Source: an uncultured Lentisphaeraceae bacterium (GTDB taxonomy: Bacteria; Verrucomicrobiota; Kiritimatiellia; RFP12; DVOR01). Taken from it: a stretch of DNA of 64,000 nucleotides. Location: positions 1 through 64,000 of the forward strand of contig CASDPK010000007.1 of the NCBI GenBank assembly GCA_949282555.1, written 5' to 3'. Position numbers and translations under genes: made by a program. The notes under the pieces are model-generated. The model was not told where the DNA came from and ran no database searches. It saw only the letters and a program-made list of their open reading frames with translations. This document shows positions 9,765-56,241 of this stretch, in pieces. Each line of letters starts with the position of its first letter. Within the stretch, counting starts at the first letter, position 1.

Positions 9765-9825
9765 GAGGTGCTCTGTATCTCCCTTCGAGAGGCTCCGTAT
9801 CCCGAAAGGAGATACGGAGCCTCTC
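9765..9825 (+). repeat. 61-bp dispersed palindromic repeat, copy A
   Basis: The layout is unit 1 GAGGTGCTCTGTATC (9765-9779), a 7-nt spacer, unit 2 GAGAGGCTCCGTATC (9787-9801), a 9-nt loop, and inverted unit 3 GATACGGAGCCTCTC (9811-9825). Units 2 and 3 are a perfect 15-bp stem. There is no T-run. It lies between the GH2 gene and the next co-directional gene. Confidence 0.9.
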
Positions 9826-9911
9826 CAATCCGTGAGGGGTGGGGTGAGTCTGTGCCCCTAGGGAATGGTTGAAGGTGTCGCATGGCGACAACGCATAAAA
9901 GGAATCCTGCA

Positions 9912-11504
9912 ATGTTCGGAAAGTCAAATCTTGCACTCTGCTTAGCATTTAGTACGTTGAGCACCTCGGTGATGGGGGTGGAGTCGCTCATTCCCTCGGC
10001 TCCGAATGGCTCCTCGCCGAATTATGTCTGCACGTGGTCTTATCAGGATTGGTTCGCGAACAATCGTCTGAAAGGGCAGGGGATCTCCCCCCGTGATACG
10101 CTGTGCCATGAGATTCTTTTCGGAGAGAAAGGGTGGGCAAAAAGTCTTTATCCCGGATTGCGAGGTGACTTGATTTATTTGCTTGATGACGGATGGGATT
10201 TGCCAAAGGCGCGCGGCGACACCTTCGGGAGCCTCGAGGTTCACCCCAGCAAGTTTCCCGGGTACGGCGAGACGCCGCCCGAGCGGCTAAAGACATTGGT
10301 GCAGAACGTCAAGGCGGCGGGCTGGAAAGGGTGCGGTGTGTGGATTTGCGCCGGGGAGAAATCCAGTGTGAAGGGCGAGGGACTCCACGAGGGCTATTGG
10401 CGGGAACGTTTGGAGTGGAGCCGCGATGCGGGTGTGGCCTATTGGAAAATTGATTGGGGAAAGCATTCGTATGATGAGGCGTGGCGCAAGATGATTTCGC
10501 GTTTGGCGGATGAAATCTATCCGGAGCTTGTCATTGAGCACATTACCGGCCTAAAAACCACAAACGATCCCCAAGGAACGGGACGCCTCACTCCGGAACA
10601 AATCCGCTACAACACCCTCCGGGGAAGTTATGCCGACGTCTATCGGACATACGATGTGAATGGGGCGCTTTCGGTGCCGACCACGTTTGAGCGCGTGGCC
10701 ACACAACTTTCAAAGGGGTACACGGATGGCCGTCAAATGGGGCTTGTCAATGGAGAAGACGAAGTCCATCTGTGCGCGGCCCTTGGGCTGACGTTTGGAG
10801 TGATGCGCTATCCTGTGGGGGATGAGCCAGCCGGAAGCCTTCCGAATATCTTTTTCGGCGGCGGTGATAACGTGTTTACGCGCTCACGCCCCTTGCGGAA
10901 AATGTTTGATGAGGTGCGCCATGCCGTGTTGTGGGCTCGCCTTGCGCCGCCTTTCCGCGTGGATGCTTCCAAAACATCCCTTTCCGAAACCATCCTCGCC
11001 GATAGCTGGACGTACGCGAAGGAGGACACATGGGATGGGGCCTTACATGGGAAGACGATCATCCAACGTGCGCCCTCGGCCATCGCCCGCGGTGTGCCGC
11101 TTCCGGAAGTCACGCAAGTGTCTCCCGGTGAGCCGTTGCCCTTCGTTTCCCTTTGTCGGTTCCCAAACGGCGCCACCGCGGTAGGCACGTATGGCCGAGT
11201 GACGCCGGAATCGGGGTACCGGAGGGTGCGGGCCCGTGTGTCGGCCCAAGCAGGAAGGCCTGAGGCGCCCGTTGGCATCTTTGGCGTGTATGACATGCTA
11301 ACGCTGACCTTTGAGGCTCCGGTTGAGGGGCGGAGACTTTGGGCACAGAGTCTCATGGGAAGCGTTCCGGCAAAGGACATCACACGTTGTGTGGTGCTTC
11401 GTGGAAATACGCTGACCATTCCGGGAGACGTCCTCTCGGAACTTGGCGTGGAGGGTGCCACGGAACCCTTTTCTGAACCGGCAGTGGTGCTGGCATTTCG
11501 TTGA
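9912..11504 (+). CDS. Secreted clan GH-D-like glycosidase (GH27/GH36-related, putative alpha-galactosidase)
   Basis: This is a 530-residue exported protein with a signal peptide (about residues 1-22). A DDGW motif near residue 92 and YWKIDWG with D181 match the strand-end motifs of clan GH-D barrels, where the second Asp is the nucleophile. An all-beta C-terminal domain follows. Family assignment is tentative. ATG 9912 is chosen over 9882 because AAGGA precedes it and it gives a clean signal peptide. The gene is separated from the upstream GH2 only by repeat copy A and from the fucosidase by 26 bp, so co-transcription is likely. An alpha-galactosidase or related alpha-linked exo-activity would complement the beta-galactosidases. 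Confidence 0.65.
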   Translation: MFGKSNLALCLAFSTLSTSVMGVESLIPSAPNGSSPNYVCTWSYQDWFANNRLKGQGISPRDTLCHEILFGEKGWAKSLYPGLRGDLIYLLDDGWDLPKARGDTFGSLEVHPSKFPGYGETPPERLKTLVQNVKAAGWKGCGVWICAGEKSSVKGEGLHEGYWRERLEWSRDAGVAYWKIDWGKHSYDEAWRKMISRLADEIYPELVIEHITGLKTTNDPQGTGRLTPEQIRYNTLRGSYADVYRTYDVNGALSVPTTFERVATQLSKGYTDGRQMGLVNGEDEVHLCAALGLTFGVMRYPVGDEPAGSLPNIFFGGGDNVFTRSRPLRKMFDEVRHAVLWARLAPPFRVDASKTSLSETILADSWTYAKEDTWDGALHGKTIIQRAPSAIARGVPLPEVTQVSPGEPLPFVSLCRFPNGATAVGTYGRVTPESGYRRVRARVSAQAGRPEAPVGIFGVYDMLTLTFEAPVEGRRLWAQSLMGSVPAKDITRCVVLRGNTLTIPGDVLSELGVEGATEPFSEPAVVLAFR

Positions 11505-11530
11505 AACGGTCGTCGTAATGTGAGGTTCTT

Positions 11531-12778
11531 ATGCGATTTTTCGCTTGCATGTTTTTCGGGCTTGCGTTGTTTTCTGTGGCTTCTATCGTCAATGGGGAGG
11601 AGCGGGCTTGGCGTGAGATGCCGAAACATTTGAAAGGATACGAAAAAGCGTATGCAGAGTCTCCACGAAGGGCATCATTGGCTTGGTTTCAGGATGCGCG
11701 TTTCGGGCTTTTCATCCATTGGGGGCCTTCGGCTGGGATTGGACGCGGCATGTGGGCAATGTACAATGAGCGTATCCCGGTGGAGGAATATGAAAAGATT
11801 GTTCGGGGATTCAAAGGAGACCGTTTTGATGCTCAGGCCTTTGTCGACCTTGCGCTCAAAGCCAAGATGAAGTACATCACCTTTGTGGCCAAGCATCATG
11901 ATGGATTTGCTTTGTGGGATAGTTCCGCTTCGGGTTATGACAGCATGGATTTTCCCTCTCATCGCGATTTTCTTGGCGAGCTGGCGGCGGCTTGTCATAA
12001 GGCGGGGCTTGGACTCTTCGTCTATTACTCCATCGGGATTGATTGGCACCATCCCTATTTCCTTCCGAACACGATGTATGACCCAGCTCGTCCTCATTAC
12101 AGGACGCTCCCATCACAGTATCGTTATCGGACCCCCGAGGACTTCCGTCATTACATGAACTTTGCCAAGACGCAACTTACAGAGATTTGCACGAAGTATG
12201 GCCCTCTTGCAGGGATTTGGTTCGACACGATTGGTGGGGTTTATCAGCATTCCGATATCTTCCGCATTCAGGAGGTGTATGATCTCATCCATGCCATTCA
12301 GCCCCATGCCTTGGTTATTTTCAAAACCGGAGCGACGGGAACGGAAGACGCCATCACAGGTGAACGTGAGATGGGATCGTTGTCGGGCGTTTTTCGAAGC
12401 GTGGGACTTCCGATTTCGGTCCAAGAGGCGGCTGATCGTGCATGGGAAGCCAACAAGGCCAAACCTGCCGAACTTAATATTCCCATTCAAACGATCGGAT
12501 GGGCCTACATTTCTTCTCCGCGCCAGCGACAAAAAGGGCCGAGAGAGGGAAAACAATTGTTACAGCAATGTGCCAACATGCGAGCGAATCTCCTCCTCAA
12601 CATCGGCCCCAAGCCGGATGGTGCCATTTTGGAAGAAAATATAAAGACATTGACCGAAATCGGTGAGTGGATAGAGAAAGAGGGATTCCCGAAACCTGTA
12701 GATGACGACTTTATGCGCCATCGTACCAAAGCTCCGCCAACGTTGGATGTGGAGAAAGCCAACCGTACCGCTAGATGA
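11531..12778 (+). CDS. Secreted GH29 alpha-L-fucosidase
   Basis: The 415-residue exported enzyme has a signal peptide to about residue 22, the FGLFIHWG strand motif, the KHHDGFALWDS substrate-site motif, and nucleophile D232 (GIWFDTIGG). It removes alpha-linked fucose from glycan chains. The usual C-terminal beta-sandwich is short or missing, as the protein ends soon after the barrel. It is the last gene before a 225-bp gap with its own promoter, so it probably ends the first transcription unit. Confidence 0.93.
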   Translation: MRFFACMFFGLALFSVASIVNGEERAWREMPKHLKGYEKAYAESPRRASLAWFQDARFGLFIHWGPSAGIGRGMWAMYNERIPVEEYEKIVRGFKGDRFDAQAFVDLALKAKMKYITFVAKHHDGFALWDSSASGYDSMDFPSHRDFLGELAAACHKAGLGLFVYYSIGIDWHHPYFLPNTMYDPARPHYRTLPSQYRYRTPEDFRHYMNFAKTQLTEICTKYGPLAGIWFDTIGGVYQHSDIFRIQEVYDLIHAIQPHALVIFKTGATGTEDAITGEREMGSLSGVFRSVGLPISVQEAADRAWEANKAKPAELNIPIQTIGWAYISSPRQRQKGPREGKQLLQQCANMRANLLLNIGPKPDGAILEENIKTLTEIGEWIEKEGFPKPVDDDFMRHRTKAPPTLDVEKANRTAR

Positions 12779-12828
12779 AAACGGTAATAATCTCCATAAT
12801 AAGTTGTTTTGGTTTGTAAAACGGATCG

Positions 12829-12863
12829 TTTTATCCATGCATACAGTTGTTTTGTCCATGTAT
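12829..12863 (+). promoter_or_regulatory. Direct-repeat operator candidate upstream of the GH35 gene
   Basis: TTTTATCCATGCAT (12829-12842) and TTTTGTCCATGTAT (12850-12863) match at 12 of 14 positions and are 21 bp apart, two helical turns, on the same face. They lie 30-64 bp upstream of the -10 box. This is the usual position for an activator site. Confidence 0.45.
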
Positions 12864-12892
12864 TTATCCTTCTTATCCGAAAGTAAACAGGA

Positions 12893-12898
12893 TATACT
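12893..12898 (+). promoter_or_regulatory. -10 box of the GH35-GH2 promoter
   Basis: TATACT lies about 105 bp before the GH35 gene. The -35 position (near 12870) is poor, which fits a promoter needing an activator bound to the direct repeats upstream. Confidence 0.45.
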
Positions 12899-13003
12899 AC
12901 TGAGTGTTGCGCCAATTTCGTACGTGTATTGAGATTTCCATCCGATCGAAAATCGAGGAAACATTCACGCATAACCCCATGAAAAGGAAAGGGAACCACA
13001 ACG

Positions 13004-15361
13004 ATGAAATGTTGCACTTTGATTCGAGGAATGATGCTTTTGCTTGGGTGGCTTATTGCTTTCCCAATGAGCTCGTCAGTCTTTGCCGGGAATCCAGCAC
13101 CAGAAGCGATACCTCCCGCTCGACGCTTCGAGCCTGGCAAGGGAACCTTCCTGCTCAACGGAAAGCCGTTTGTCGTGAAGGCCGCAGAGGTCCACTATCC
13201 GCGAATTCCGGAACCCTACTGGGAACATCGTATCCTCATGTGCAAGGCACTGGGAATGAATACGCTGTGTCTTTACATATTTTGGAATTATCATGAACGG
13301 GAACCAAGAAAGTTCGATTTCACAGGGAATGGAGATATTGCCCGCTTTTGTCGTTTGGCACAGAAGCACGGGATGTATGTGATTGTTCGCCCGGGCCCCT
13401 ATGTCTGCGCAGAGTGGGAGATGGGTGGTTTGCCCTGGTGGTTGCTCCGAAAGGATGGAATTCGTCTGCGCACGAATGACCCTTACTACTTGGAATGCGT
13501 TGGCCTTTTTCTGAAAGCCGTAGGTAAGGAGCTTGCCCCATTGCAATTCTCGAGAGGGGGCAATATTCTCATGGTACAAGTGGAGAATGAATACGGGGCA
13601 TATGCAACGGACAAAGCGCATGTGGCAGCCATTCGGGACATGGTGCGCGCAGCCGGGTTTACGGATGTGACGCTTTTCCAGTGCGATTGGAGCAGTACAT
13701 TTAAGCGAAACGGATTGGATGATTTGCTTTGGACGATAAACTTTGGGACAGGGGCTGATATCGATGGCCAGTTCAAAAACCTTCGGGCCGCTCGTCCGGA
13801 CTCACCGATGATGTGCAGTGAGTTTTGGAGTGGTTGGTTTGACCATTGGGGACGCAAGCATGAGACGCGGAATGCGGATACGATGGTGCGTGGAATCCGC
13901 GATATGTTGGATCGTGGCATTTCGTTCAGCCTTTACATGACACATGGCGGAACGACCTTTGGTTGGTGGGGTGGGGCCAACAATCCCGCTTATTCGGCAA
14001 TGTGTTCGTCATACGACTATGATGCTCCTATCAGTGAAGCCGGATGGGTGACTCCGAAGTATGAGAAATTGCGTGCACTTCTCCAAAAGTACACGAGTGC
14101 CCCATTGCCTGATCCACCTGCACCCATGCCGATTATTACCATTCCGGAATTTCGAATGGCGCGCGCAGTGAGCGTGTTTGAGGCGTTGCCCGAACCAAAG
14201 GTGAGCCAAGATATCCAGCCAATGGAAACCTTTGGTCAGGGGTGGGGCACTATTCTCTATTCTACGTCTCTGCCGCATGCAGTCAAAGCCGGAGAGACGC
14301 TTGCCATTGACGAAGTTCACGATTGGGCCCAGGTTTTCGCGGATGGAAAGCTGCTTGCTCGCCTTGATCGTCGCAAGAAAGAGTTCTCGTTTAAGTTGCC
14401 TTCCGACCTCCCTGCCGGGACTCGGCTTGATATTCTCGTGGAAGCGATGGGACGCGTCAATTTCGGTGGCTCCATTCATGACCGCAAAGGAATCACAAAG
14501 AAAGTGACGCTTGGTGCCGAAGAGTTGAAGAATTGGCAAGTGTACAACCTGCCCCCGGATTATGCCTTCGTTGCCGCGACAAAGGCGAAAGAAGGGATTT
14601 CCGTCGTGGGGCCCGCATGGTGGGCCGGTTCGTTTGATTTGGAAACGACGGGTGATACCTTCTTGGATCTGCGCGACTGGGGCAAAGGCATGGTATGGGT
14701 GAATGGCCATGCACTCGGACGGTTTTGGGAGATTGGACCGCAACAGACCCTCTTTTTGCCTGGTTGTTGGCTGAAGAAAGGGCGCAATGAGGTGATCGTG
14801 CTTGACCTCAAGGGCCCTCGTGAGCCCGTTTTGCGGGGACTTGACAAGCCAATCCTCGACCAATTGCGCGGGATTGTCTCCGACAAGCACCGCAAACCCG
14901 GTCAGACGCTGTGCCTACAGGGCGAAAAGCCTGTTGCGGAGGGTACGCTCGCAACCGGTGGCGGCTGGCAGAAGGTAGACTTCCCAACCCCAACCGAGGG
15001 ACGATATCTTTGCTTGGAAATATGTTCGACCTTTGACCCTAACCAAGCCGCGGCCATTGCTGAGCTCGAACTTATCGGAACGGATGGGAAACCATTGTCA
15101 CGGGAGAATTGGCGTGCGGTCTATGCCGACTCCGAAGAAACGCGCTCCGGGAACGCCACCGCTGATAAGGTCTACGACCTCCAAGAGTCCACCTTCTGGG
15201 CGGCCGAGCCTAAGGCGAAGTGCCCGCACGCCCTCGTCATTGATCTTGGGACAACCGTGCGCGCCACAGGTTTGCGCATCCTTTCCCGCGCCGAGAAGGG
15301 GGCTCCCGGACAGGTCAAAGATTGCCGCGTTTATCTCAAAGCCTCACCGTTTCGTCTGTAA
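13004..15361 (+). CDS. Secreted GH35 beta-galactosidase
   Basis: The 785-residue exported enzyme has a signal peptide to about residue 28 and a TIM barrel with acid/base E196 (QVENEYG) and nucleophile E273 (MCSEFWSGW). The barrel is followed by beta-sandwich domains; the last 150 residues resemble a discoidin/F5-8C-type carbohydrate-binding module. It cleaves terminal beta-galactose. Only 12 bp separate it from the following GH2 gene, so both come from the promoter near 12893. Confidence 0.94.
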   Translation: MKCCTLIRGMMLLLGWLIAFPMSSSVFAGNPAPEAIPPARRFEPGKGTFLLNGKPFVVKAAEVHYPRIPEPYWEHRILMCKALGMNTLCLYIFWNYHEREPRKFDFTGNGDIARFCRLAQKHGMYVIVRPGPYVCAEWEMGGLPWWLLRKDGIRLRTNDPYYLECVGLFLKAVGKELAPLQFSRGGNILMVQVENEYGAYATDKAHVAAIRDMVRAAGFTDVTLFQCDWSSTFKRNGLDDLLWTINFGTGADIDGQFKNLRAARPDSPMMCSEFWSGWFDHWGRKHETRNADTMVRGIRDMLDRGISFSLYMTHGGTTFGWWGGANNPAYSAMCSSYDYDAPISEAGWVTPKYEKLRALLQKYTSAPLPDPPAPMPIITIPEFRMARAVSVFEALPEPKVSQDIQPMETFGQGWGTILYSTSLPHAVKAGETLAIDEVHDWAQVFADGKLLARLDRRKKEFSFKLPSDLPAGTRLDILVEAMGRVNFGGSIHDRKGITKKVTLGAEELKNWQVYNLPPDYAFVAATKAKEGISVVGPAWWAGSFDLETTGDTFLDLRDWGKGMVWVNGHALGRFWEIGPQQTLFLPGCWLKKGRNEVIVLDLKGPREPVLRGLDKPILDQLRGIVSDKHRKPGQTLCLQGEKPVAEGTLATGGGWQKVDFPTPTEGRYLCLEICSTFDPNQAAAIAELELIGTDGKPLSRENWRAVYADSEETRSGNATADKVYDLQESTFWAAEPKAKCPHALVIDLGTTVRATGLRILSRAEKGAPGQVKDCRVYLKASPFRL

Positions 15362-15373
15362 AGGAATACTCCC

Positions 15374-18300
15374 ATGAAGCGAAGCCTTCTCTCCCTTATC
15401 GGAGCAACCGTCGCAGGAGGCCTTTTGGCCGGAACTGTGTGGCCGGAGGTGGATCTTCCACGTGCACCAAAGGCGATCCCTGGTTTGGAGCAAACCGAAA
15501 TCAGCCTTAACGAAACCACGGGCGACGGCACGTGGAAGTTCCTGTTGGACGTGCCAGATTCGACAAAATCCGGCATCCCGCGTCCCACCGCGGCGTGGCA
15601 GGATTTCGACTTCACGGGATGGATCGGCCGAGACTGGAGGCCGATTCGCGTACCTGGCGAACCGGCCATGCAGGGCTTTGATATCAAAAACAATGAAGAA
15701 TACTATTACCGCCGCATCGTCACCGTTCCGAAAGATTGGGCGGGCAAGCGGGTGCTGTTGCGCTTCGATGGCGTCTACAGCAATGCCCGCGTGTGGGTCG
15801 GGTCCCGGCACGTGCGGTCTCACGTTGGAGGATTCACGACATGGGATTGCGATCTTACGGAGCTCGTCCGCCCGGGGGAACCCTTCACTTTGACCGTCGG
15901 CGTTGCGGACATTCAAGGCAAAGACAAGGGGCTTTGGAATCCGGAGGGCCGCCCGGTGAAGAATCCTTCCAACGCCTCGGAATATGCCCATCACAACATT
16001 GGTGGCATCTTGCGCGACGTTTCGCTTGTCGCATTGCCACAAACCTATTTGGCAGACGTCGAAACCTTGACCGCGCTAAGTGCGGATTATCGTGACGCGG
16101 AATTGACGGTGACGGCGCGGACAAACCCTACCGGTGCCGATGCAACATTGCGTGTGGAAGTCCTTGACGGTAAGACATTGCTTGCCGGAGGTGAAGCCGC
16201 GTTGCGCGGAGGGGAAACCGCAAAGGTCCTACTGCCCGTGAAAGCTCCGCGTTTGTGGGATGCTGAGCATCCCAACCTTTACACGTTGCGGGCCACGCTC
16301 CTCATCGGGGGGCGCACGGTTCAGGTCAATGAGGAACGCATCGGTTTCCGCGCGTTGACGTTTGGCGGTCGCAACGGAACGGATGTCAACAAGCTCTACG
16401 TGAATGGCCGCCCCGTGCGGCTGCGTGGCACCTGCCGGCACGACGTGTCGCATGACTTGGGGCGTTCCATGACGCGGGAACAAGCTTTCGCCGAGGCTCG
16501 GGCTTATAAGGAGGCAAACATCAATTTTATCCGCACGTCTCACTATCCAGCCTCTGAGGATTTGCTCGATGCTTGCGATGAGCTGGGTATTTATGTGGAA
16601 CAAGAAGCTGCCGTTTGCTTCCAAGGCCCGTGGGCCCCTGTGGATAGTGTTTATGCGGATTACGCGGCACAATTCGTGGAAATGGTCGAGCGCGACCGCA
16701 ATCGTGCCTGCATCGTCATTTGGTCCATCGCCAACGAAAGTCATTTTGACAATGTGGGCAAAAAGTTGATACGGAATCCCTTTGCAGATGCGCGTGCTTA
16801 TCTTCGCGAACGGGAACCCTCTCGGCCTGTGATGTTCAGCTGGCCCAACACCGGAGCCCCCAAAGGATTCTTTGACATTTACAGCGAGCACTACGCCCAC
16901 GTGATGGGTAACATGGGGCGCAAAGATATGCCCCGTTTGCATGATGAATATGCACATATCGCTTGTTACAACCTGGATGAGCTCCGCCGCGATCCCAATG
17001 TCCGCAACTTCTGGGGGGAGAGTGTCTTTCACGCTTGGGATCATATTGTGCGCGACGATGGAGCCCTTGGCGGAGCCCTTTGGGGTGGCATCGACGACGT
17101 TTTCTACCTTCCCGTCAACGTCCCGGAGCGCCATCAGCGTCATTCCGATGGTGCCGTGGCCGGTTATGGCGAATGGGGCTCGGTTTGGGATGCTTATCAT
17201 CGGCCCAAGCCCGAGCTGTGGCTGACCAAAAAGGCGTATTCTCCTTTGCGTTTGGTTGAGCGCGAAGCAAAGTTGGAAGGGACACGTCTTACCGTTCCTG
17301 TCGAGAATCGTTATGACCATACGTGCCTTTCCGAGTTGGAAGCGATTGTCACGCCGCATGGCGCCTCACCTACGCGGGTTCGGCTCGCGCCTTTGGCCCC
17401 GCGCTCCAAGGGGGCGCTTGTGTTCGATATCCCGGCGGGGACGGAATCCGTTCGGCTGCGTTTCCTCGAACAGAACGGACATGTGGTCGAGGAAGCGGAA
17501 TTGACGTTCGTACCTTTCCAGCCGAAGGCCCTGCCAGAACCAACCACTGCGCCCACTATCACCGAAACGGCTGAGACATTCGCCGTCAAGATGTCCGAGG
17601 GCGAAGCCATCTTTGACCGGGCGACCGCACGGCTCCGTTCCTACACGGCGCAGGGGAAGTCCCTGCTGTTGGGAGGCCCTGACCTTGTGGCCACGGGGGT
17701 AACGCTCGGAACGTGGAAGGGGACGATGTGCTCCGCCAAGACAGAGGGGAATCGCGTGCTGGTCACGCTTGAAGGAACGTATGCCTGCGGGCTCAACGTT
17801 CGTTTTGAGATTGCCTTCTTGAACGATGGCCGCATGGAGACGCACTACACGCTCCTCTCTGAACCGCCCAAGGGCGCGAAGCCCCGCGAAGTTGGCCTCT
17901 CTTGGCCCATCCCCTCCGCAGACTCCGTCCAGTGGGAGCGAACCGCGTTCCACAGTGCCTATCCGGAAGATCAGATTGGTCGCCCCAGGGGAACGGCCTT
18001 GCGGGTTCGTCCCGGCAGTGACAAGACCCCTGACCGCTACGGCGTCCGCCCGGCGTGGCCGTGGAAGGATGACATGCGCAATTACTTTGTTTTTGCCCAA
18101 AATGATCCCAACGATGGCCTTGCCACGAATGATTTCAAGGCGATGCGGGAGGCGATCCGTTTCTACACGGTCGCACTTTCCGGCGGAGGAACGCTTCGTG
18201 TCGATTCCGATGGCAAGAGCCAAGCCGCTCGCGTTTCCGTTTCCGCCGAACGCATGATGATTGATGACCGCGATCCGCGTGTCCGTTATTCTGAGGGCGG

Positions 18301-18766: not shown

Positions 18767-18796
18767 GCGATTCTTAAGATCTCCACAGATCTCTTC

Positions 18797-18830
18797 ACGG
18801 CGATGCCTTCTTTAGGGCTCGCCGTTTTTT
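18797..18830 (+). terminator. Rho-independent terminator of the GH35-GH2 unit
   Basis: ACGGCGA (from 18797) pairs with TCGCCGT (to 18825), followed by TTTTTT (18825-18830). It ends the plus-strand glycan block. Confidence 0.85.
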
Positions 18831-18853
18831 CTTCCCGCAAAGCTTCACATATT

Positions 18854-18914
18854 GAGATGCACCGTATCACGACTGGGGATGCACTATGTCTCGTAGGAAG
18901 ATGCTCCGCATCCC
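18854..18914 (+). repeat. 61-bp dispersed palindromic repeat, diverged copy E
   Basis: The layout is GAGATGCACCGTATC (18854-18868), 7 nt, GGGATGCACTATGTC (18876-18890), 9 nt, GATGCTCCGCATCCC (18900-18914). The sequence has drifted but unit and spacer lengths are exactly those of the other copies. The base of the stem still pairs (GGGATGC with GCATCCC), so changes occurred on both arms. It lies between the convergent GH2 and CBM9-like genes. Confidence 0.65.
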
Positions 18915-18998
18915 AAATCGAAGGAATCTGTCGCGTGATGCTTCCTTCGCAAGAGGAAGCGCACTTGTGGGGGAGACCGCCATTTCAAAACCTGTGCA

Positions 18999-19033
18999 CA
19001 AATGAATAACGCCGCCCCTTTGCAGGAGCGGCG
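18999..19033 (-). terminator. Probable terminator of the sulfatase/CBM9-like unit
   Basis: On the minus strand, CGCCGCTCC (19033-19025) pairs with GGGGCGGCG (19018-19010), followed by a T-rich TTATTCATT stretch. It lies 25 bp past the CBM9-like stop codon. Confidence 0.6.
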
Positions 19034-19058
19034 AAGATGAAGCCAGCATGAGATTCCG

Positions 19059-25960: not shown

Positions 25961-26021
25961 GAGAGGCTCCGTAAGTCACCCCAAGACGCTCCGTATCGCA
26001 CTCAACGATACGGAGCGTCTC
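25961..26021 (+). repeat. 61-bp dispersed palindromic repeat, copy B
   Basis: The layout is GAGAGGCTCCGTAAG (25961-25975), 7 nt, AAGACGCTCCGTATC (25983-25997), 9 nt, GATACGGAGCGTCTC (26007-26021). The stem is 14 bp. Compared with copy A, a G-to-C change in one arm is matched by C-to-G in the other. It lies between convergent deoA and the barrel gene. Confidence 0.9.
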
Positions 26022-37211: not shown

Positions 37212-37747
37212 AGGTCAAAGTTTGCGGTATCACACGGCCGGAAGACTTGCGCTTGGCCGATGCGTTCGGTGCGGATTTCGCGGGATTCGTCTTGGCCCCT
37301 GGGTCTCGGCGATATGTTTCTCCCGAACGTTTGGCGGTGTTGGGTCGAATCCCGGTGCGTTTGCGCAAGGTTGGCGTTTTTGTTCGGGCCACGCCGCGAC
37401 AAATCGCACAGGCCGTGCGACTTGGGAAGCTGGATGTGGTGCAGTTGTACCACTGTACGTTCCGCCGTTCCGGGGTCGAGGTCTGGCACGCCACGCCGGG
37501 CGCCCGCGGCACGGTGGTGCTTGATGCGGCCCCCGGAGAGGGGCGGCTGGGCAATTGGGACATTGCCGCACGCCGGGCCCGCACACGGCGTGTCGTCCTT
37601 GCCGGAGGGCTGACCCCTGACAACGTGGCTGAAGCCATCCGCAGTGTTCACCCATGGTGCGTGGATGGCGCCAGTGGCACGGAGGCCGCGCCTGGCATAA
37701 AGGACGCAACAAAACTGAACGATTTCATCCGAAAGGCAAAACAATGA
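37208..37747 (+). CDS. trpF: Phosphoribosylanthranilate isomerase
   Basis: This 179-residue barrel enzyme performs the Amadori rearrangement before TrpC. The KVCGIT start contains the active-site Cys, and [16 protein letters not shown] and the terminal phosphate loop VDGASGTE are visible. It is shorter than the usual 200-210 residues. The ATG at 37208 overlaps the trpC stop as ATGA and its own stop overlaps the trpBA ATG, also as ATGA. Confidence 0.94.
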
Positions 37748-39807
37748 CACATTACGGTATCTACGGCGGGCAATACGTGCCCGAGACCCTTATCCCCACG
37801 TTGTCCGAGATCGCGGAGGCCTTCCGCTCGGCACAGGCTGATCCGGCCTTTCACGCCGAATACAATGCCTTGCTGCGCGACTACGTTGGGCGCGAATCGC
37901 CCCTCTACTTCGCACGGCGGCTAAGTGAGGCTTTTGGGGGTGCGCGGATCTATCTGAAACGTGAGGATCTCAACCACACCGGTGCACACAAAATCAACAA
38001 TGTCATTGGTCAGGCACTGCTCGCTCGCCGCATGGGGAAAACCCGATTGATCGCCGAGACGGGCGCCGGAATGCATGGTGTGGCCACCGCCACCGTCGCG
38101 GCACTCTTTGGCCTGCCATGTGAGGTCTACATGGGCGCGATTGACGTGGCGCGGCAGGCGCCGAACGTTGATCGGATGCGGGCGCTTGGGGCGACCGTCC
38201 ATGCGGTGGAATCCGGCTCGCGCACGCTGAAAGATGCCATGAATGAGGCCATCCGTGATTGGGCGGCCTCTTCTGAGCACACCTTTTACGTGATCGGGAC
38301 GGTGGCCGGCCCCGCGCCATATCCCGAAATGGTGCGCGCTTTTCAATCCGTGATCGGCACGGAAACGCGCCGTCAGTGCTTGGAGAAAGTGGGCCGTCTG
38401 CCCGATGAGGTGATTGCGTGCGTCGGCGGCGGCTCCAACGCGATGGGCATTTTCTCGGGGTTCCTTGACGATCGGGAGGTCCGTTTTACGGGTGTGGAGG
38501 CCGGCGGACGCGGCTTGGCCTCCGGAGAACATGCCGCAAGCATCAACGGAGGCTCCGTGGGGGTGCTGCATGGGTGCAAGACCAAACTTCTTCAGACGCC
38601 CGATGGGCAGGTGATTGAGGCCTATTCAACTTCGGCGGGATTGGACTATCCCGGCGTTGGCCCGGAACATTGTTTCTTGGCGGATCTTGGCCGCGTGCGG
38701 TATGCCGTCTGCGACGATGCCCCCGCCATTCGGGCGTTCGATGCGCTTTGCCGTTATGAAGGCATCATCCCTGCCCTCGAAAGTTCCCACGCCCTTGCGG
38801 AGGCAATCCGCCGTGCGCCCGAGCTCCCCCGTGAGGCCGTGCTGGTGGTGTGCCTTTCCGGACGCGGTGACAAGGATATGGGGAATGTGGCGGATTGGAA
38901 GGCCGCTCACCCCGGATATGAGCGAGAAGAGACAAAAGCGCTTCCTGCCCGCCCCATGAAGCCTACGACTGCAAAGCCTTCCCTTGCTGTGGTGCCGAAT
39001 GGGGCTGTGGAGGCATTGCCCAAACATGGCACACGTGGACGCCTTCGGGCGGCCTTTGCCCGCGCAGCGGCGGAGGGACGTCCGGCCCGTGTCTTCTTCA
39101 TGCCGTGCGGCTGCCCTTCGCTTGCGGAAAGCGAAAAGGTGCTGGAGACGCTTGCGGAGGGTGGGGCGGACGTTTTGGAACTCGGGGTTCCCTTTTCCGA
39201 TCCCATTGCCGATGGCACGGTGATCCAAGCCGCGAGTCAGCAAGCCTTGAAGGGCGGTGTGACGTTGGCGGATTGTCTTGCCCTTGCGCAACGGCTTAGG
39301 GCCAAATATCCGAAACTTGGACTGGTTCTCTTTTCCTACTGCAATCCCATTTTGGCCTATGGTGTCAAGCGGCTTTGTTCGGAGGCCGCGGCGGCGGGAA
39401 TCGACGGTTTGCTGGCCGTGGATGTCCCCTTCGAGGAGGAGAGGGAATTGCGGCCTTTCGCTGAGGCGGCCGGGCTCTCTTGGATTCCCTTGATCTCTCC
39501 GGCCACGACCCCTGAACGTGCCGCGCGGCTCACGGCGGGATGTGATGGCTTCGTTTATGTGGTCACGGTGCGCGGAATCACCGGCGAACGGAAAACCTTG
39601 CCGCCGGAACTGGCGGAACGTCTTGCCGCACTGCGGCAGATCACCGATCTGCCGCTTGCCGCAGGATTCGGTATCGCGGATCCGGATACGGCACAAACGG
39701 TCGGCCGTCACGCGCATGGGGTCGTCATTGGTTCGGCGGCCGTGCGTGCCCTCGCCGAAGGTGGCATCCCCGGTCTTCGGGCGTTCCTTGCGCCGTTCAC
39801 GGCGTGA
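37744..39807 (+). CDS. trpBA: Tryptophan synthase beta-alpha fusion (TrpB-TrpA)
   Basis: One 687-residue chain carries both subunits. Residues 1 to about 395 are TrpB: the PLP lysine is K83 (HTGAHKINN), with E105 in AETGAGMHG, the phosphate-binding GGGSNA at 228-233 and SGRGDKD near 372. Residues 396-430 form a Pro/Lys/Ala-rich linker. Residues from about 431 are TrpA, with catalytic E479 (LELG) and D490 (FSDPIADG), and late barrel motifs VTVRGITG and GFGIADPD. The beta-then-alpha order is the reverse of the fungal alpha-beta fusion and matches the usual bacterial trpB-trpA gene order. No stop or frameshift separates the domains. Channelling between active sites would still require the normal face-to-face contact, perhaps between chains. 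Confidence 0.95.
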
Positions 39808-39841: not shown

Positions 39842-39902
39842 AAGAGACTCCGTATCTCGACACGTGAGGCTCCGTATCCCACCACGCGATACGGAGCCTT
39901 GC
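39842..39902 (+). repeat. 61-bp dispersed palindromic repeat, copy C
   Basis: The layout is AAGAGACTCCGTATC (39842-39856), 7 nt, GTGAGGCTCCGTATC (39864-39878), 9 nt, GATACGGAGCCTTGC (39888-39902). The stem is 12 perfect base pairs plus wobble pairs at the base. It lies between the convergent trpBA and GH20 genes, in the only gap where trp transcription could end; no T-run terminator is present. Confidence 0.9.
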
Positions 39903-46308: not shown

Positions 46309-46371
46309 TATCAGCCGATAGGATGTCCGTCAACGTCTTTGTGTTCTTTTTCAGAGAGCACAGTTGATGAA

Positions 46372-46382: not shown

Positions 46383-46388
46383 GAGTGT

Positions 46389-48202: not shown

Positions 48203-48221
48203 CCGCTCCTCACCGTCGGGC

Positions 48222-48989: not shown

Positions 48990-48997
48990 ACGGTATC

Positions 48998-51745: not shown

Positions 51746-51769
51746 AAGCAGCTCCGAACGTCACAGGTT

Positions 51770-52177
51770 TCAATCTTGGGCACGGACGGTGGCGGCGCGC
51801 CAACGGTCCGCAAGGGTTCGCAAAGGCATGGTGAGGAAATCTTCCTGTCCGCGCGGCGCCCCGATGACGCGCTTCAAGGCGAGAAGGAACGTTTCGTTTT
51901 CCCTGTCATCGTAGATACAATGCTCGGGATAAAGCACGAGATAGAGGGCCATCGGGGTGCAATCCGCGGGAAGACGGTGGGCCGCCCCCCTCGCCAATCC
52001 GTAGGCTTTCTCCACGCAATCCAAAAAGGCTTCGTCCTCTGGGGCCCAAGGCCCGCCGGCCCCTCTGGGAAACGCACGGTTGAATCGATGCCGGAAGGAG
52101 TGACGGAACAGGGCGAGGATGAGCAATGTGCAACCACCCAAGAAAACAAGATAGACCAAGAGTCGTGTAAGCGTCAT
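51770..52177 (-). CDS. Small membrane-anchored protein of unknown function
   Basis: This 135-residue protein has one N-terminal transmembrane segment (TRLLVYLVFLGGCTLLILALF) and a cytoplasmic-type soluble part. Features include a PxDEAFLDCVEKAYGLARG helix and a TLADRWRAA C-terminus. I do not recognise the family. The ATG at 52177 sits 3 bp beyond the upstream stop, so it is co-translated with the Cys-motif protein. Confidence 0.65.
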   Translation of the reverse strand: MTLTRLLVYLVFLGGCTLLILALFRHSFRHRFNRAFPRGAGGPWAPEDEAFLDCVEKAYGLARGAAHRLPADCTPMALYLVLYPEHCIYDDRENETFLLALKRVIGAPRGQEDFLTMPLRTLADRWRAATVRAQD

Positions 52178-52179
52178 TG

Positions 52180-52770
52180 TCACTTTCTCCGACGGCGTAA
52201 CACACGGAAGGTTCGCCAAGGCCGCCGTTGACGGATTACCTTCGCCCTCGGGCGCAGGGCCTGCGCACCTCCCTCCAACAAATCCAACATCCTCTTTTGG
52301 ACGGTTGCGATGTCTTCCGCGCGCAATTCGGGGTCGATGACGGGAAAGAGGTCTCCCGTTCCGCGTTGTTCGTAGAGTCGAATCCGACGCCCTGCGGCAT
52401 CCACGGTGACATCGCGCTCGACAAAACGCTTGCTTCGCTCCATCAAAACAGCCAGCACATAAATGGTGCCACGATCATTGGGATCGCCTCGTGCCATCAA
52501 GGTGCGCAAGAGGTGTTCGGCGGTCTCTTTGTGCAATGGCTCTTCACGCGTCTTGCTCTTCATCGCCTTGGGGACGGAAAACGACCATGCACTTACGGCG
52601 GATTGGACTACATCGCTGGGCAACGCCTCAAAACACGCTGGGCAAAAATCTTGCCGGCACCATTCACCGTCCGTATGTGACAACAAGGAATGCCCGGCAC
52701 TCCCCGGAAGAAACGGGGCGTTGCAGACGGCACAAGCCGAGGCGCGTGGCTGGATATTCCACTCAGTCAT
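52180..52770 (-). CDS. Cys-motif (zinc-ribbon-like) protein of unknown function
   Basis: The 196-residue protein has CAVC near residue 14 and CPAC near residue 42, a spacing typical of a treble-clef or zinc-ribbon fold. A helical middle and a strongly basic C-terminus (RQRRPWRTFRVLRRRRK) follow. It may bind nucleic acid. It overlaps the AsmA-like gene by 8 bp and is 2 bp from the next gene. The frame extends to 52806, but ATG 52770 fits the coupling. Confidence 0.65.
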   Translation of the reverse strand: MTEWNIQPRASACAVCNAPFLPGSAGHSLLSHTDGEWCRQDFCPACFEALPSDVVQSAVSAWSFSVPKAMKSKTREEPLHKETAEHLLRTLMARGDPNDRGTIYVLAVLMERSKRFVERDVTVDAAGRRIRLYEQRGTGDLFPVIDPELRAEDIATVQKRMLDLLEGGAQALRPRAKVIRQRRPWRTFRVLRRRRK

Positions 52771-55700
52771 TCTTTTTCTTTCGATTGAAAAGACTGCGGA
52801 GGGCATCCCCCAGTTGCTCGCCTGCCTCGGCTCCGCCTCGGCCCGTCGCGCGGATGACGTCCCCTGCCGCGTCCCCTAAGGCGCTGCCGGCATCCATTCC
52901 GGCCTCTCCGCCCTTCTTGAGTGCCTTTCCAAGCCGTTCGGTCAGGCGCTCCGTAGCCTGTCCAAGAGCGGAATTCGCGAGGGTATTCACGAGCGGCTCT
53001 GTGTCAAGAATTGGACGATCCGTGGTTCCCCTGATTGGGAGGCGCAACACCTCACCGACGCGCAGATGCTTGGACAGCCGGTCTCCCAGCAATTGTTGCG
53101 TCAAGGGCAAGGAAAGGGTGTAATCCAGCTCTCGGGTCATGAGGTTGGTGGACCCCGAGCAGTCAAGCTTTATGGCCGCAATGCGCATTCGAATGGGATC
53201 ACAGGTCAGCGTGCCCTCGGTGATACGGACGGAAAAATCCTGATCGGGGAGAATGGCGGCCTTGTCGGCCATTCGCACAAGACCAAGCACCGTGCCAAGC
53301 AGACCGTTGGGGCGGACGCCGCAGGCATGCGTGCGCAGGGAGAATTGCGTCTCCAAATCCTTCAGCGGAACGTCACCAAGGGGAAGGGTGAACCGATTGC
53401 AGACGAGATCCAGCGTCCCTTGCGGTGAGGCAGAGCCAGGGAGCATGGGGTTGACATATTTCAAAGCGGTGTCGAGCAATTGTTGTGTGAGGGCGACCCC
53501 CTCCAGCACCTGCGAATCGTCGGGGAGCGTGATGGTGTATGGCTTGGCCCCAAGGGCGATGCGCGGCGAAAGCCGCAACGTGCCGCCATTGACGGTCAAA
53601 ACGCCATCCAGTGCGGCAATGCCCTTGTCCAATGCGACCTTGGCCGTCCCGTTCGGGATGTCGAATCCCGGCACCGTGATCCGATCAAAAACCACTTCAG
53701 CCGAACCCTTGCCATAGTTGAGAAAACCCGCCGCCCCAGCATTGATCGGAGCCTCAAAGGCAAACGGACGCGAATGGCGCCCCGTGATGGCAACGTGTTT
53801 CCGCAGCGTGTCGAAAAAGGGAAGGTCCAAAAAGATGGCCGTGAAGTCCGGCGTCAGTTCGCCTTGGAGTTTGGCCAGATTCTCAACCAGCGTCCCATTC
53901 GCCTGAAGTCCGAGATAAGGGGTTTCCAGCGTGAGCGATTTCAATTCGGCAGTCGTTTCGTCCAACGAGGCAGTGGCCTCCAGTGTGATGGGCAACGGGA
54001 ACGCACGGTAAGGCGGCAGCGTCATCGCGAAATCCGTGGACTTCAAGCGAAGCTGTCCGGTACCCTCTCGGCTGGCCGGGGCGTAGGAAAGTTGGATGGC
54101 GTAATCCGTTTCCCCCGTGAGCGACATCGGCGTTTCGTCTTTGCCCCACGTGCGCCACCGGGCGAGCACGGTTCCCGGCTGAGCCGTTCCGGAAAGGTCC
54201 AGGGTGAGATGGCCGGGCCGCAGACGATAGGTGACATCGCCTTGCGCGGAAAAGACAGGTGAGGTGAGCTTGAGATGGGTAAGCGTGAAACACCATCCGG
54301 GATTGGGGGCGTTCCGCTCGTTCCATCCCCTGAAATCCGTCTCGGCCTCCAACAGGCTTGGCTCCTCCACCTTCCACGAAGCCGAGCGATAGGTCAAATC
54401 ACGCACGGCCAGCAGGGCCTTGCCCTTGAAGTCCTCAAACGCTCCCGCACCCGCGGCATTGACCCAAAGCGTGCCTTTCAGTTGCTGGCCATTGGGGAGC
54501 GGCGGAGCGAACCGCAAGGCCTCCTCCAAAATCGCCTTGAGATTCAGCTTCGCCGAACGGACACTTCGATTTTCAAGATCGATGCCCTCCGCCGAGAGCG
54601 TCACGTCCGCGATTGTTTGCGTGCGCGATGTGGCCTTGACGTCCAGTCCAAACGTGCCATCCTTTGCGCGTGCGTCAAGCCGGAGTGACAATGCGTCTGC
54701 GAGGGAGAGCTCCCCGAGGAACGGGCGGAACGTCTCCAGCAGGCGATTGACATCAAGTTCAGCCGCGAGCGTCCCTTCCGCCAACGAGCCCTTTCCCGCG
54801 GCCATCAGCCCCGGAAAATCGAGCGAAAGACGTTCAAGGGTGGCTCTCAGCGGGGCGTTGGGATCTACTGACAGCGCGAATCCCAGACGCGGGGAGAGGC
54901 GGAGCGTCTTCCCCTCATAGGTGAGTGCCACATCATTTGAGCTGAGATCAAGCGTTGCCGTCTGTTGCCCCTTGATTTTGCTTGGCGCCAAGGCCGCCGA
55001 GAGAATGACATTTCCCGAGACCGCCTCAAGACCCTCGGGCACGGCCACCTTGAGCGTTTGCAGACGCGCCAAAAGAGGGGCAAGACGGAGCGTCATGGTC
55101 GTTTGGCAGAGGGGAAGGGCGGCCTCCGGCGGCATGTCCACGTTGGCCGACAGGGTGGCCCACGGCGCGGCAAAGCTCATGCGGGCGGTTCGTAGGATGT
55201 CCGCCGCAACCTTTGCCTCCAAAAGCCGTTCAATGGGGGAAAGGGTCGCTTCCGCCGTTGTCGTGGCGTCCAAGGCTTGCCCGGAAAAGGTCACCGTGAG
55301 ATCCTTGTCCAACGCCGGGAGATTCACTTCCAGCCGCCCCTTGGAGAGCAACGGCTCGGGTAGGGCGTCCGAATGCACGCTGGCCTCCGTGACCGTGACA
55401 CGGGCGGAAAGATCCCACGCCGGCAACACCATTTTCTTCGGCGCGCTTGGCGCCGTTGCGGGAGGCGTCGTTGGCGGAGGGACAGGCGCCGTCTCTGTGG
55501 GCACCGACGTGAGGAAGACTTCCGGCGTTTCCACCGCAACCTCCACGGACATTTTGCCCATGGGCAAAAGCTGCCACAACGACCCAAGGCGAACCCGCTT
55601 CACCGTGGATCGGATACCCTTGGTTTCATCGCAATACGTGATCCCCTCAATCTGTTGCTCCCCAAACCATGAGAGCGACCATGCCTCCGCGGTTACGCGC

Positions 55701-55897
55701 GCAGGCGCCACAGCGGCATTGAGACGCTCCAAAGCCCACGTGCGCGCCCATGTCATCGAAAGGATCGTGGGTGTGGCCACGACCAATCCGATCAGCGCGA
55801 CCACCAGAACAAGGAGGCCAATAACCCACTTGCGGAGCCACTTGCCCCGCTTTTTGGGTGGAGGTTCGGCGGCATTGATAGGGTGTGTAAAATCCAT
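52763..55897 (-). CDS. AsmA-family inner-membrane protein
   Basis: This 1044-residue protein has one N-terminal transmembrane segment (WVIGLLVLVVALIGLVVATP) and a very long periplasmic beta-rich region. The C-terminal DUF-like ending includes LDCSGSTNLMTRELDYTLSLPL, typical of AsmA domains. Family members are implicated in phospholipid transport to, and assembly of, the outer membrane. The C-terminal 50 residues are Ala/Gly/Asp-rich with a basic end. The ATG at 55897 follows GAGGAG; the seven extra residues of the longer frame look unnatural. It heads the polA operon. Confidence 0.82.
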   Translation of the reverse strand: MDFTHPINAAEPPPKKRGKWLRKWVIGLLVLVVALIGLVVATPTILSMTWARTWALERLNAAVAPARVTAEAWSLSWFGEQQIEGITYCDETKGIRSTVKRVRLGSLWQLLPMGKMSVEVAVETPEVFLTSVPTETAPVPPPTTPPATAPSAPKKMVLPAWDLSARVTVTEASVHSDALPEPLLSKGRLEVNLPALDKDLTVTFSGQALDATTTAEATLSPIERLLEAKVAADILRTARMSFAAPWATLSANVDMPPEAALPLCQTTMTLRLAPLLARLQTLKVAVPEGLEAVSGNVILSAALAPSKIKGQQTATLDLSSNDVALTYEGKTLRLSPRLGFALSVDPNAPLRATLERLSLDFPGLMAAGKGSLAEGTLAAELDVNRLLETFRPFLGELSLADALSLRLDARAKDGTFGLDVKATSRTQTIADVTLSAEGIDLENRSVRSAKLNLKAILEEALRFAPPLPNGQQLKGTLWVNAAGAGAFEDFKGKALLAVRDLTYRSASWKVEEPSLLEAETDFRGWNERNAPNPGWCFTLTHLKLTSPVFSAQGDVTYRLRPGHLTLDLSGTAQPGTVLARWRTWGKDETPMSLTGETDYAIQLSYAPASREGTGQLRLKSTDFAMTLPPYRAFPLPITLEATASLDETTAELKSLTLETPYLGLQANGTLVENLAKLQGELTPDFTAIFLDLPFFDTLRKHVAITGRHSRPFAFEAPINAGAAGFLNYGKGSAEVVFDRITVPGFDIPNGTAKVALDKGIAALDGVLTVNGGTLRLSPRIALGAKPYTITLPDDSQVLEGVALTQQLLDTALKYVNPMLPGSASPQGTLDLVCNRFTLPLGDVPLKDLETQFSLRTHACGVRPNGLLGTVLGLVRMADKAAILPDQDFSVRITEGTLTCDPIRMRIAAIKLDCSGSTNLMTRELDYTLSLPLTQQLLGDRLSKHLRVGEVLRLPIRGTTDRPILDTEPLVNTLANSALGQATERLTERLGKALKKGGEAGMDAGSALGDAAGDVIRATGRGGAEAGEQLGDALRSLFNRKKKND

Positions 55898-55923
55898 AAA
55901 ACGACTCCTCAAGGGCACACGCC

Positions 55924-55932
55924 CATTGTAAC
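55924..55932 (-). promoter_or_regulatory. Promoter of the AsmA-polA-truA operon (extended -10)
   Basis: On the minus strand TGTTACAAT is an extended -10, 26 bp before the ATG at 55897 with a GAGGAG between. Confidence 0.55.
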
Positions 55933-56077
55933 AAATGTCTTTCTATCCCGTAAAAGCAACACGGTCTTAAGGCTTATTTCGGAAGGCATGGGATGCCCTC
56001 GGATTAAAGGTATATGGGTGGATCAACCATGCCAACCATCGGTGTAATGAGCAACGTGCGCACCCCTTTCTATTATA

Positions 56078-56107
56078 CTTGAAATGTTTACTTCCTGACG
56101 TTTCAAG
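56078..56107. other. Unassigned hairpin in the gap between asmA-like and thiD genes
   Basis: CTTGAAATGT (56078-56087) pairs with ACGTTTCAAG (56098-56107) with one wobble and a 10-nt loop. TATACT just upstream (56074-56079, plus strand) could be a -10, but no -35 is present. The 55,930-56,180 stretch has no ORF worth calling. It may be a small RNA or a control site. Confidence 0.3.
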
Positions 56108-56180
56108 ATAATAAAGAAGCGCCAGCGAGGGCAGACACACAGGCCAAGTCACCACGAACGCGAATGCCGAGCCTCTGTGC

Positions 56181-56241
56181 GGGAGGCTCCGTATCGGACG
56201 GTGAGATACGGAGCCTCTCGGAGGGTGATACGGAGGATCTC
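56181..56241 (-). repeat. 61-bp dispersed palindromic repeat, copy D (opposite orientation)
   Basis: On the minus strand, from 56241 down, the order is GAGATCCTCCGTATC, 7 nt, GAGAGGCTCCGTATC, 9 nt, GATACGGAGCCTCCC. On the plus strand these are 56227-56241, 56205-56219 and 56181-56195. The stem is 13 perfect base pairs plus wobble. The single half-unit is on the other side compared with copies A-C, showing the element is inverted as a whole. Confidence 0.9.

Follow-up and report, generated by a model that had tools for sequence, protein, structure and literature searches.

Intergenic arrays of quasi-palindromes on a 22-23 bp lattice, spaced kilobases apart, in an uncultured Lentisphaeraceae bacterium and its relatives

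Introduction

What are the 61-bp palindromic repeats that recur between the genes of an uncultured Lentisphaeraceae bacterium, and what governs their placement? REP-like repeats are usually explained by spread driven by a RAYT transposase, and REPINs consist of two palindromic units in inverted orientation around a spacer that varies. An earlier note, made from the letters alone, had proposed a repeat of fixed asymmetric 15-7-15-9-15 geometry. We followed this proposal in the window (the whole stretch of 64,000 nucleotides, contig CASDPK010000007.1, positions 1 to 64,000), in its source genome G000 (2.43 Mb, 65 contigs, 94% complete) and in relatives of the same genus.

Results

The window holds five arrays, as follows.

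9765..9825, plus strand: array 1, orientation ++-; units 9765-9781, 9787-9803 and 9809-9825 (17-bp register, centres 22 bp apart); 14 bp beyond the stop codon of a gene for a GH2 beta-galactosidase (Pfam), with a tandem gene downstream
18854..18914, plus strand: array 2, degenerate, orientation +++; units 18854-18870, 18876-18892 (weak, PWM score -0.5, on the same lattice) and 18898-18914; between convergent genes
25961..26021, plus strand: array 3, orientation ++-; units 25961-25977, 25983-25999 and 26005-26021; where a pyrimidine-nucleoside-phosphorylase-type gene converges with a gene that has no Pfam match
39842..39902, plus strand: array 4, orientation ++-; units 39842-39858, 39864-39880 and 39886-39902; in the gap where a TrpB-TrpA fusion gene and a GH20-type gene converge
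56181..56241, minus strand: array 5, orientation ++-; units 56181-56197, 56203-56219 and 56225-56241; flanked by two minus-strand genes

The four clear copies that had been reported were recovered at their coordinates and with their 15-7-15-9-15 lengths, the last of them on the minus strand, and the diverged fifth copy is the +++ array with the weak middle unit. Allowing up to three mismatches, GAGAGGCTCCGTATC occurs 16 times in the window compared to 1.5 expected (maximum in 100 shuffles, 5).

Sequence comparison identified the 15-nt unit as a quasi-palindrome, GAGAnnC-n3-GnnTCTC, and the conserved columns of an alignment of 29 copies (A1) read GAGAGGCTCCGTATC. The site is a quasi-palindrome of 13-17 bp, and an array in G000 consists of one to four sites, mostly three (three units in 53 of 86 arrays, two in 26, four in 5 and one in 2). 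In these 86 arrays, which were selected by lattice score, the centre-to-centre distances of 131 of 133 further units are exact multiples of 22 bp. A less biased scan that dispensed with this selection, with the unit centre derived from its own 22- and 24-nt pairs, placed 33 of 35 near pairs on the 22-bp lattice; its 88 isolated near-matches to the 9-nt core are about as many as chance would give. The constraint on length held up on the lattice, and the asymmetric geometry did not prove fixed: it corresponds to the orientation ++-, only the commonest of several patterns (43 of 86 arrays). Orientation is not free, as ++- and +- together make up 61 of the 86. The supposed asymmetric half-unit is better read as part of a lattice of quasi-palindromes with a strict pitch of 22 bp, which (like the pitch of about 23 bp in relatives) is roughly two helical turns.

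The family extends throughout the genome. The pattern CTCCGTATC-N9-GATACGGAG with up to three mismatches was found at 75 places compared to 1 for a reversed-pattern control, and the oriented three-unit pattern gave 57 matches (in some cases a single element matched on both strands) compared to 0 for its control. The structure-model scan that the earlier note had proposed yielded many further copies: a covariance model, with 150 of 1443 candidates scored, returned 149 rows that were collapsed by hand to about 99 places, an incomplete list to which a later scan adds six G000 arrays. Visual comparison of 30 copies showed no relatedness in the 45 nt that flank them on each side; therefore, the copies are not recent identical duplications of a larger element.

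Gene context was classified for 65 of the 99 places with genes from our own codon-usage caller, and element positions for these and the spacing counts were hand-copied from listings. Sixty of the 65 arrays overlap no called gene, in agreement with the intergenic location first described. The median distance is 52 bp to the nearest 3′ end and 173 bp to the nearest 5′ end. Of the two contexts claimed earlier, nearness to 3′ ends therefore stands, and the preference for convergent genes is not significant (16 of 52 classifiable arrays vs 19 of 99 background gaps, p = 0.15). Divergent gaps hold 10 of the 52, as frequent as background, although some of these gaps are long enough that a gene may have been missed in them. 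An apparent clustering near contig ends (a copy less than 400 bp from the end in 8 contigs) was dropped; of 7 such ends examined, 4 have about 100 bp in common with another contig, as if the assembly had been broken in intergenic DNA by other repeats.

The arrays avoid one another over kilobases, as measured on the contigs of these fragmented genomes. In G000, 1 of 55 gaps is shorter than 5 kb compared to 12.7 expected (0 of 5000 simulations), and against a null of intergenic sites, drawn from the same gene calls, P is about 0.015 for gaps under 5 kb and 0.001-0.002 for gaps under 7 kb. When weak arrays are included, 27 arrays in 464 kb are separated by gaps of 7.1-27.6 kb (CV 0.36 vs 0.81); degenerate arrays likewise keep their distance. 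Two relatives behave similarly, with 4 of 107 gaps under 5 kb in G030 (30 expected) and 1 of 48 in G003 (10.6 expected), counts for which most contigs of the relatives were taken to end 8 kb past their last array. Spacing in contiguous samples from two species ranges from 5.4 to 27.6 kb with a mean of 13.5 kb. Pooling the contiguous arrays of G000 and G030 gives a regularity beyond that of a 5-kb exclusion null (P = 0.002). Taken singly, a minimum distance alone nearly explains the regularity of G000 (7 kb, P = 0.06) and of G030 (5 kb, P = 0.08), which means that exclusion could be enough without a ruler. On its own, the contiguous sample of G003 shows no significant regularity (P = 0.12), and where G003 is collinear with G030 it has one gap as long as 46 kb. 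Other dispersed repeats in the same stretches of the relatives fit random spacing; among these controls, the family labelled GGCGCGAAGCGCC was searched as GCGCCCC[GT]GC, and some families may share elements.

The scan of related genomes, another check suggested at the outset, found arrays of other palindromes with a pitch of 22-23 bp in at least 8 of 16 same-genus genomes, by a search that is noisy in GC-rich sequence; a scan for palindromicity only was too weak and was replaced by other scans. Arrays of one relative reach up to 7 units. Those of G003 and G030 have a unit sequence unlike that of G000 and a similar kilobase spacing. Many G030 copies share spacers besides units, which looks like recent spread of a mobile element, and some have AAAGGSSCCTTT-like motifs at both ends (by eye).

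Individual sites turn over fast between close relatives. Compared by eye with the collinear stretch of G003, seven G030 arrays comprise one that is shared, two that are cut in G003 to one unit, three that are absent there and a seventh left out of these classes; the comparison also added two G030 arrays to the incomplete lists of the relatives. Whole intergenic segments differ at the differing loci; a target duplication is not readable because of this, and neither a clean empty site nor a target duplication was seen at the compared loci. Seven G000 junctions aligned with G030 on one flank only, two of them mapping to one G030 place. In a sample of 127 genomes from the order but outside the genus, none has more than 2 matches (up to 2 mismatches allowed). 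The 12 exact matches among genome_contigs in other organisms are isolated palindromes without lattice neighbours, and a phage origin was rejected, as the exact pattern occurs in 0 stretches of viral_contigs.

Proteins that might move or bind the arrays were searched for with PF01797 (Y1_Tnp) and PF09299 as the transposase models. The linked RAYT/TnpA_REP transposase that had been suggested did not appear: PF01797 has no match in G000 or in the array-rich G003, G030 and G045 (all 87-95% complete), and controls match in E. coli. Among 17 genus genomes, it matches only in G033 (two matches, of which one passes the cut-off) and G053 (a single match that falls short of it). The Mu/Tn7-type model PF09299 found nothing in the 17 genomes, a null that says little because control genomes were silent too. 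One close pair of G030 arrays was examined for an autonomous partner; the enclosed ORF reads in translation like a leucine-rich-repeat protein, and no transposase was seen. A search for a ParB/Noc-like paralogue in G000 returned none beyond a single ParB_N match; G003 and G030 have a weaker second match each.

Discussion

Compared to known systems, the arrays combine familiar and unfamiliar features. PMC2817692 describes BIMEs as REPs set at regular distances with alternating orientation. The present arrays have the look of BIMEs, as first suspected, being composites of constrained spacing in many intergenic copies throughout the genome; the units themselves do not pass as REPs. The GTAG and CGTC tags are defined as a tetranucleotide at one foot of the palindrome (PMC3733652), and neither is conserved in alignment A1. 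Like GTAG REPs and BIMEs, these are short, species-specific palindromic intergenic repeats of about 100 copies that form dimers and larger composites; unlike them, the present arrays have no conserved GTAG tag in their units, go with no Y1 transposase in G000, G003, G030 or G045, keep a fixed 22/23-bp lattice and avoid one another on a kilobase scale. In the account of PMC3733652, many REP-like repeats are clustered, and CGTC REPs have stems of 8-9 bp, loops of 4-5 nt and a CGTC tag, lie mostly downstream of genes, rarely form clusters and are apparently without a dedicated transposase. Our family shares the location and the lack of a found transposase, but it has no conserved CGTC tag and arrays are its rule. 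REPINs are also known from the literature (PMC3116915). Like the present arrays, they disperse an inverted pair of palindromic units as a unit; here, however, the spacer length is fixed, arrays of three and more units occur and no RAYT was found.

The arrays also resemble parS, Noc-binding, matS and SlmA sites in being palindromic, putatively protein-bound and present at many chromosomal places. Those sites are usually single, conserved in sequence and regional in distribution, whereas the present ones form arrays, change sequence between sister species and coexist in G000 with a single-copy ParB.

We consider it most likely that these are protein-binding arrays acting at the DNA level, REP/BIME-like in appearance and kept at even distances by function or by self-exclusion. 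Such a layout would be expected if dimers of a single DNA-binding protein lined up along the same face of the helix. A species-specific protein would bind the arrays, and their quasi-even spacing may be kept because they serve as chromosome-organising sites, for example, as anchoring points of supercoiling domains or of the nucleoid. New arrays could arise by copying into intergenic slots, gain or lose whole units and be replaced when the specificity of the protein drifts. In favour of this reading are the exact lattice, the mutual avoidance in G000, G030 and G003 set against the randomly spaced control repeats of the relatives, the near-constant pitch of different units in relatives and the lack of a wobble bias. 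The joint reading, dimer-binding arrays with an organising role, is quite plausible though still tentative. Its extension to a genus-wide system, with an array every 10-15 kb in which the specificity of a putative dimeric binder and its site are replaced while pitch and spacing are conserved, is possible but rather unlikely.

Several observations run against the joint reading. First, single sites are not conserved between G030 and G003. Second, G003 tolerates its long gap, a minimum distance could suffice and orientation is not free. Third, no binding protein was found, with ParB single copy in G000. Finally, spacer sharing in G030 has the look of a recent mobile element.

A selfish REP- or MITE-like repeat moved in trans by a putative transposase or recombinase is also a real, if doubtful, possibility. 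Insertion would be blocked within several kilobases of an existing copy (target immunity), or close copies would be purged, and even spacing would be a by-product of saturation. Species-specific families, the near-identical cores and spacers in G030, presence or absence between close relatives, the intergenic location and the near-sufficiency of a 5-7 kb minimum distance all fit such an element. However, G000, G003, G030 and G045 have no Y1 transposase, the Mu/Tn7-type C-terminal domain was not found (a weak point, given the silent controls), the compared loci differ over whole intergenic segments with no clean empty site or target duplication, no transposase was seen in the one close G030 pair examined, and even degenerate G000 arrays keep their distance.

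The two most striking features, both beyond what the earlier note could show, are the even spacing along the chromosome and the arrays of different sequence but equal pitch in sister species. Either way, a family with no detected RAYT joins strict 22-23 bp helical phasing to mutual avoidance in three species, one of which differs from the other two in unit sequence, while other repeats in the same stretches of the relatives fit random spacing. This would point either to an organising signal set at even distances along a bacterial chromosome or to a mobile repeat with kilobase-range self-exclusion and no identified immunity transposase, and both alternatives are open to testing.

E. coli BIME-2 is reportedly bound by gyrase, and the arrays might similarly be sites of gyrase or of other supercoiling relief where positive supercoils gather. 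Their REP-like intergenic make-up and the share of convergent gaps point that way, but the convergent excess is not significant, divergent gaps are at background frequency and unit sequences that differ between species are not what a conserved gyrase would predict; we regard this explanation as improbable.

Hairpins acting in RNA, as transcription terminators, 3′-end stabilisers or RNase-processing sites, are already weakened as an explanation and very improbable: a unit and its inverted partner across 9 nt can pair over as many as 15 bp and 3′ ends are the nearer ones, yet 10 of 52 arrays lie between called divergent genes and kilobase-scale avoidance is not predicted. No Rfam match reached the gathering score in the window (4227 families). 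Stem mismatches carry no wobble bias, the non-Watson-Crick pairs on the transcribed strand in 26 tandem cases being G.T 28, A.C 25 and other 40. That the copies are not ordinary terminators was rightly judged before; by eye, no conserved T-run accompanies 30 copies, and separate terminator-like hairpins with T-runs of their own adjoin two arrays (C10:130809 and C27:10179).

Copies in the window and in the genome

The 61-bp palindromic repeat described in the earlier note was found exactly at the four positions claimed for it, and a fifth, degenerate copy was located:

9765-9825, clear copy
18854-18914, degenerate copy
25961-26021, clear copy
39842-39902, clear copy
56181-56241, clear copy

Near-matches to the repeated unit, a 15-nt quasi-palindromic site (17-bp register), numbered 16 in the window against 1.5 expected. 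The window is C7:1-64000 of a genome (G000) of 2.43 Mb in 65 contigs, 94% complete. A genome-wide scan, as proposed in the earlier note, yielded further copies: the inverted pair occurred at 75 places within three mismatches (reversed-pattern control, 1), and the three-unit pattern gave 57 matches (control, 0). Run on both strands, a covariance model trained on 29 copies returned 149 rows (150 of 1443 candidates were scored), which were collapsed by hand to 99 places.

Architecture of the arrays

Units start 22 nt apart on the same strand, 24 nt apart head to head and, in a single case, 20 nt apart tail to tail. These offsets reduce to one centre-to-centre distance of 22 bp, the unit centre being the ninth base of GAGAGGCTCCGTATC, which is the dyad of the quasi-palindrome GAGAnnC-n3-GnnTCTC drawn from unit counts. 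The 22- and 24-nt pairs served to define the centre, and the 20-, 44- and 46-nt pairs then agreed with it. When 464 kb were scanned without lattice selection, the lattice accommodated 33 of 35 near pairs. In a separate set of 86 distinct arrays, chosen by lattice score, 131 of 133 further units lay exactly on it. Orientation is variable, with head to head favoured (++- 43, +- 18, ++ 8, +-+ 6, +++ 4, ++-- 3, single 2, others 2). Thus, the 15-7-15-9-15 geometry reflects a symmetric lattice in its most frequent orientation (43 of the 86 arrays) and not the fixed asymmetric design proposed at first, while the observation that spacers differ in letters and keep their length was borne out.

Gene context and proposed binding at the DNA level

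For 65 G000 arrays, a simple gene caller placed 26 between tandem, 16 between convergent and 10 between divergent genes, with 5 overlapping a called gene and 8 one-sided; background gaps of at least 90 bp were 62 tandem, 19 convergent and 18 divergent. The suggested preference for convergent genes is not significant (16 of 52 classifiable arrays vs 19 of 99 background gaps, p = 0.15). By eye, separate terminator-like hairpins with T-runs adjoin two arrays. On the transcribed strand of 26 tandem cases, non-Watson-Crick pairs in the stems were G.T 28, A.C 25 and other 40, so no selection at the RNA level is visible; the window had no Rfam match. Dyad symmetry, a pitch of two helical turns and the missing RNA signals are consistent with binding of the arrays by a predicted dimeric protein, which would act at the DNA level. 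A link to a RAYT transposase found no support, as no RAYT-type candidate was found in G000, G003, G030 or G045; G000 showed no extra ParB candidate either, and a Mu/Tn7-type search gave no match anywhere, control genomes included.

Two apparent gene fusions were seen in the window, TrpB-TrpA in one ORF at 37654-39807 (open nearly full length in five relatives too) and a ThiD-type kinase joined to a short-chain-dehydrogenase-like part at 56304-58082. The starts of G000 contigs C45, C6, C3, C10 and C17 and a site near the end of C53 have a common sequence with terminus ATGCGTTTGCCCTG, probably an insertion-sequence end.

Arrays of other units in related genomes

In a set of 144 genomes of the order that counts G000 itself, no other genome exceeds two matches to the inverted pair within two mismatches, whereas G000 has 68. 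Arrays of other palindromes with a pitch of 22-23 bp occur in at least 8 of the 16 other same-genus genomes; the sampling for arrays left aside G047, G050, G053, G056 and G059 and had short, partly N samples of G014 and G042. A GAGACCCTATAGGGTCTC-type model matched in 6 of 17 genomes (G030 248 rows, G003 192, G045 130, G009 29, G023 24, G036 2), with no match in G000.

Other array units (samples only)
AAACCCnnnAGGGTTT type, G009, 3 loci in 80 kb
GRGACACGCCGTRTCYC type, G019, 2 loci in 100 kb
CAATnTCGCTGAnATTG type, G033, 2 loci in 58 kb
Two different units, G039, once each

With up to four mismatches, the G009 pattern also matches one locus in G000 as well as arrays in three relatives (G003, G023 and G030), and the G019 pattern 9 G000 loci; from these cross-matches, the units seem to fall into two or more related groups. 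Five further families of the order were scanned against shuffles as well, with counts of 12/6 (G001), 4/5 (G002), 39/20 (G004), 9/8 (G005) and 19/20 (G006), and no common unit was seen by eye among up to nine places listed for each, those of G006 being N. The small contigs L129 (G014), L140 (G042) and L162 (G006) are wholly or partly N, so that arrays there are uncountable. G004 carries another REP-like family, five near-identical copies of the hairpin CGTGGCGGGG-tgcgga-CCCCGCCACG within 80 kb (L153, L154), and G001 hexamer-type repeats based on CGATAC/CGACCC/CGATTC (L144-L145).

Spacing along the chromosome

The arrays keep apart. Only 1 of 55 same-contig gaps in G000 was below 5 kb, compared to 12.7 expected, a result reached in 0 of 5000 simulations. 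With the null restricted to called intergenic gaps (464 kb, 14 gaps between 21 listed elements), none was below 5 kb vs 3.4 expected (P about 0.015) or below 7 kb vs 4.8 (P 0.001-0.002). A scan including degenerate arrays found 27 in these 464 kb (shuffled sequence at the same threshold, 0), with gaps of 7.1-27.6 kb and a CV of 0.36 vs 0.81; six of them are outside the 99 places and lie in wide gaps between other arrays. Gaps below 5 kb numbered 4 of 107 vs 30 expected in G030 (136 places) and 1 of 48 vs 10.6 in G003 (90 places). On contiguous stretches, avoidance held in G030 (0 of 15 gaps under 5 kb vs 4.5, P = 0.001); G003, too small a sample alone, gave 0 of 7 vs 1.7 (P = 0.12). Control dispersed families there, five in G030 and six in G003, had spacing consistent with random. 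Besides the arrays, these stretches hold at least two dispersed intergenic families with spacing that fits random (e.g., L104:15366, L107:313, L118:5611), one of (GAGAACGGA)n-type tracts and another a ~110-bp element with ends ACGCAAGGG/CCCTTGCGT and a CACCGTTCGG-like core.

Regularity is nearly explained by a minimum distance alone, of 7 kb in G000 (P = 0.06) and 5 kb in G030 (P = 0.08). Pooling both species, without G003, nevertheless shows more regularity than 5-kb exclusion would give (P = 0.002). This pooled regularity, together with the distance that degenerate arrays likewise keep, favours function as the source of even spacing, and the arrays may serve as domain or anchoring sites. Searches of one open-access library, with PMC3733652, PMC12306157, PMC2817692 and PMC3116915 among the papers, brought up no description of palindromic arrays that are evenly spaced and change their sequence between species, which does not establish that print lacks one.

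Turnover and spread of the arrays

Even spacing may instead reflect self-exclusion of a mobile repeat, for which site turnover and recent spread speak. Spacers are common to different copies in G030, suggesting that its family spread recently; those of G000 are randomised. G003 C3 and G030 C4 are collinear (blocks of ~89-98% identity, C4 96-162 kb), and the fate of seven arrays there was judged by eye from alignments.

G030 arrays and their state in G003
C4:124497, present too
C4:161936, single unit left; 92 bp = 4 x 23 differ
C4:105918, single unit left
C4:115073, 129894 and 136245, absent with the surrounding intergenic segment
C4:144715, counterpart not assignable from the alignment

Seven G000 arrays have a flank on one side that can be aligned with a relative, and at none of these places does the relative carry a G000-type array. 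From these comparisons of sequence, individual sites are dispensable and short-lived, while the long-range pattern persists. Between the same two contigs, whole intergenic segments differ between flanks ~89-98% identical, like swapped intergenic cassettes. At L296 (G003 C9:56575), the left flank matches G030 C4 as far as the array at 94205 and the right flank G030 C7 ~0.4 kb from the array near 41.8 kb, a junction at arrays that would stem either from a rearrangement or from the way the assembly was joined.
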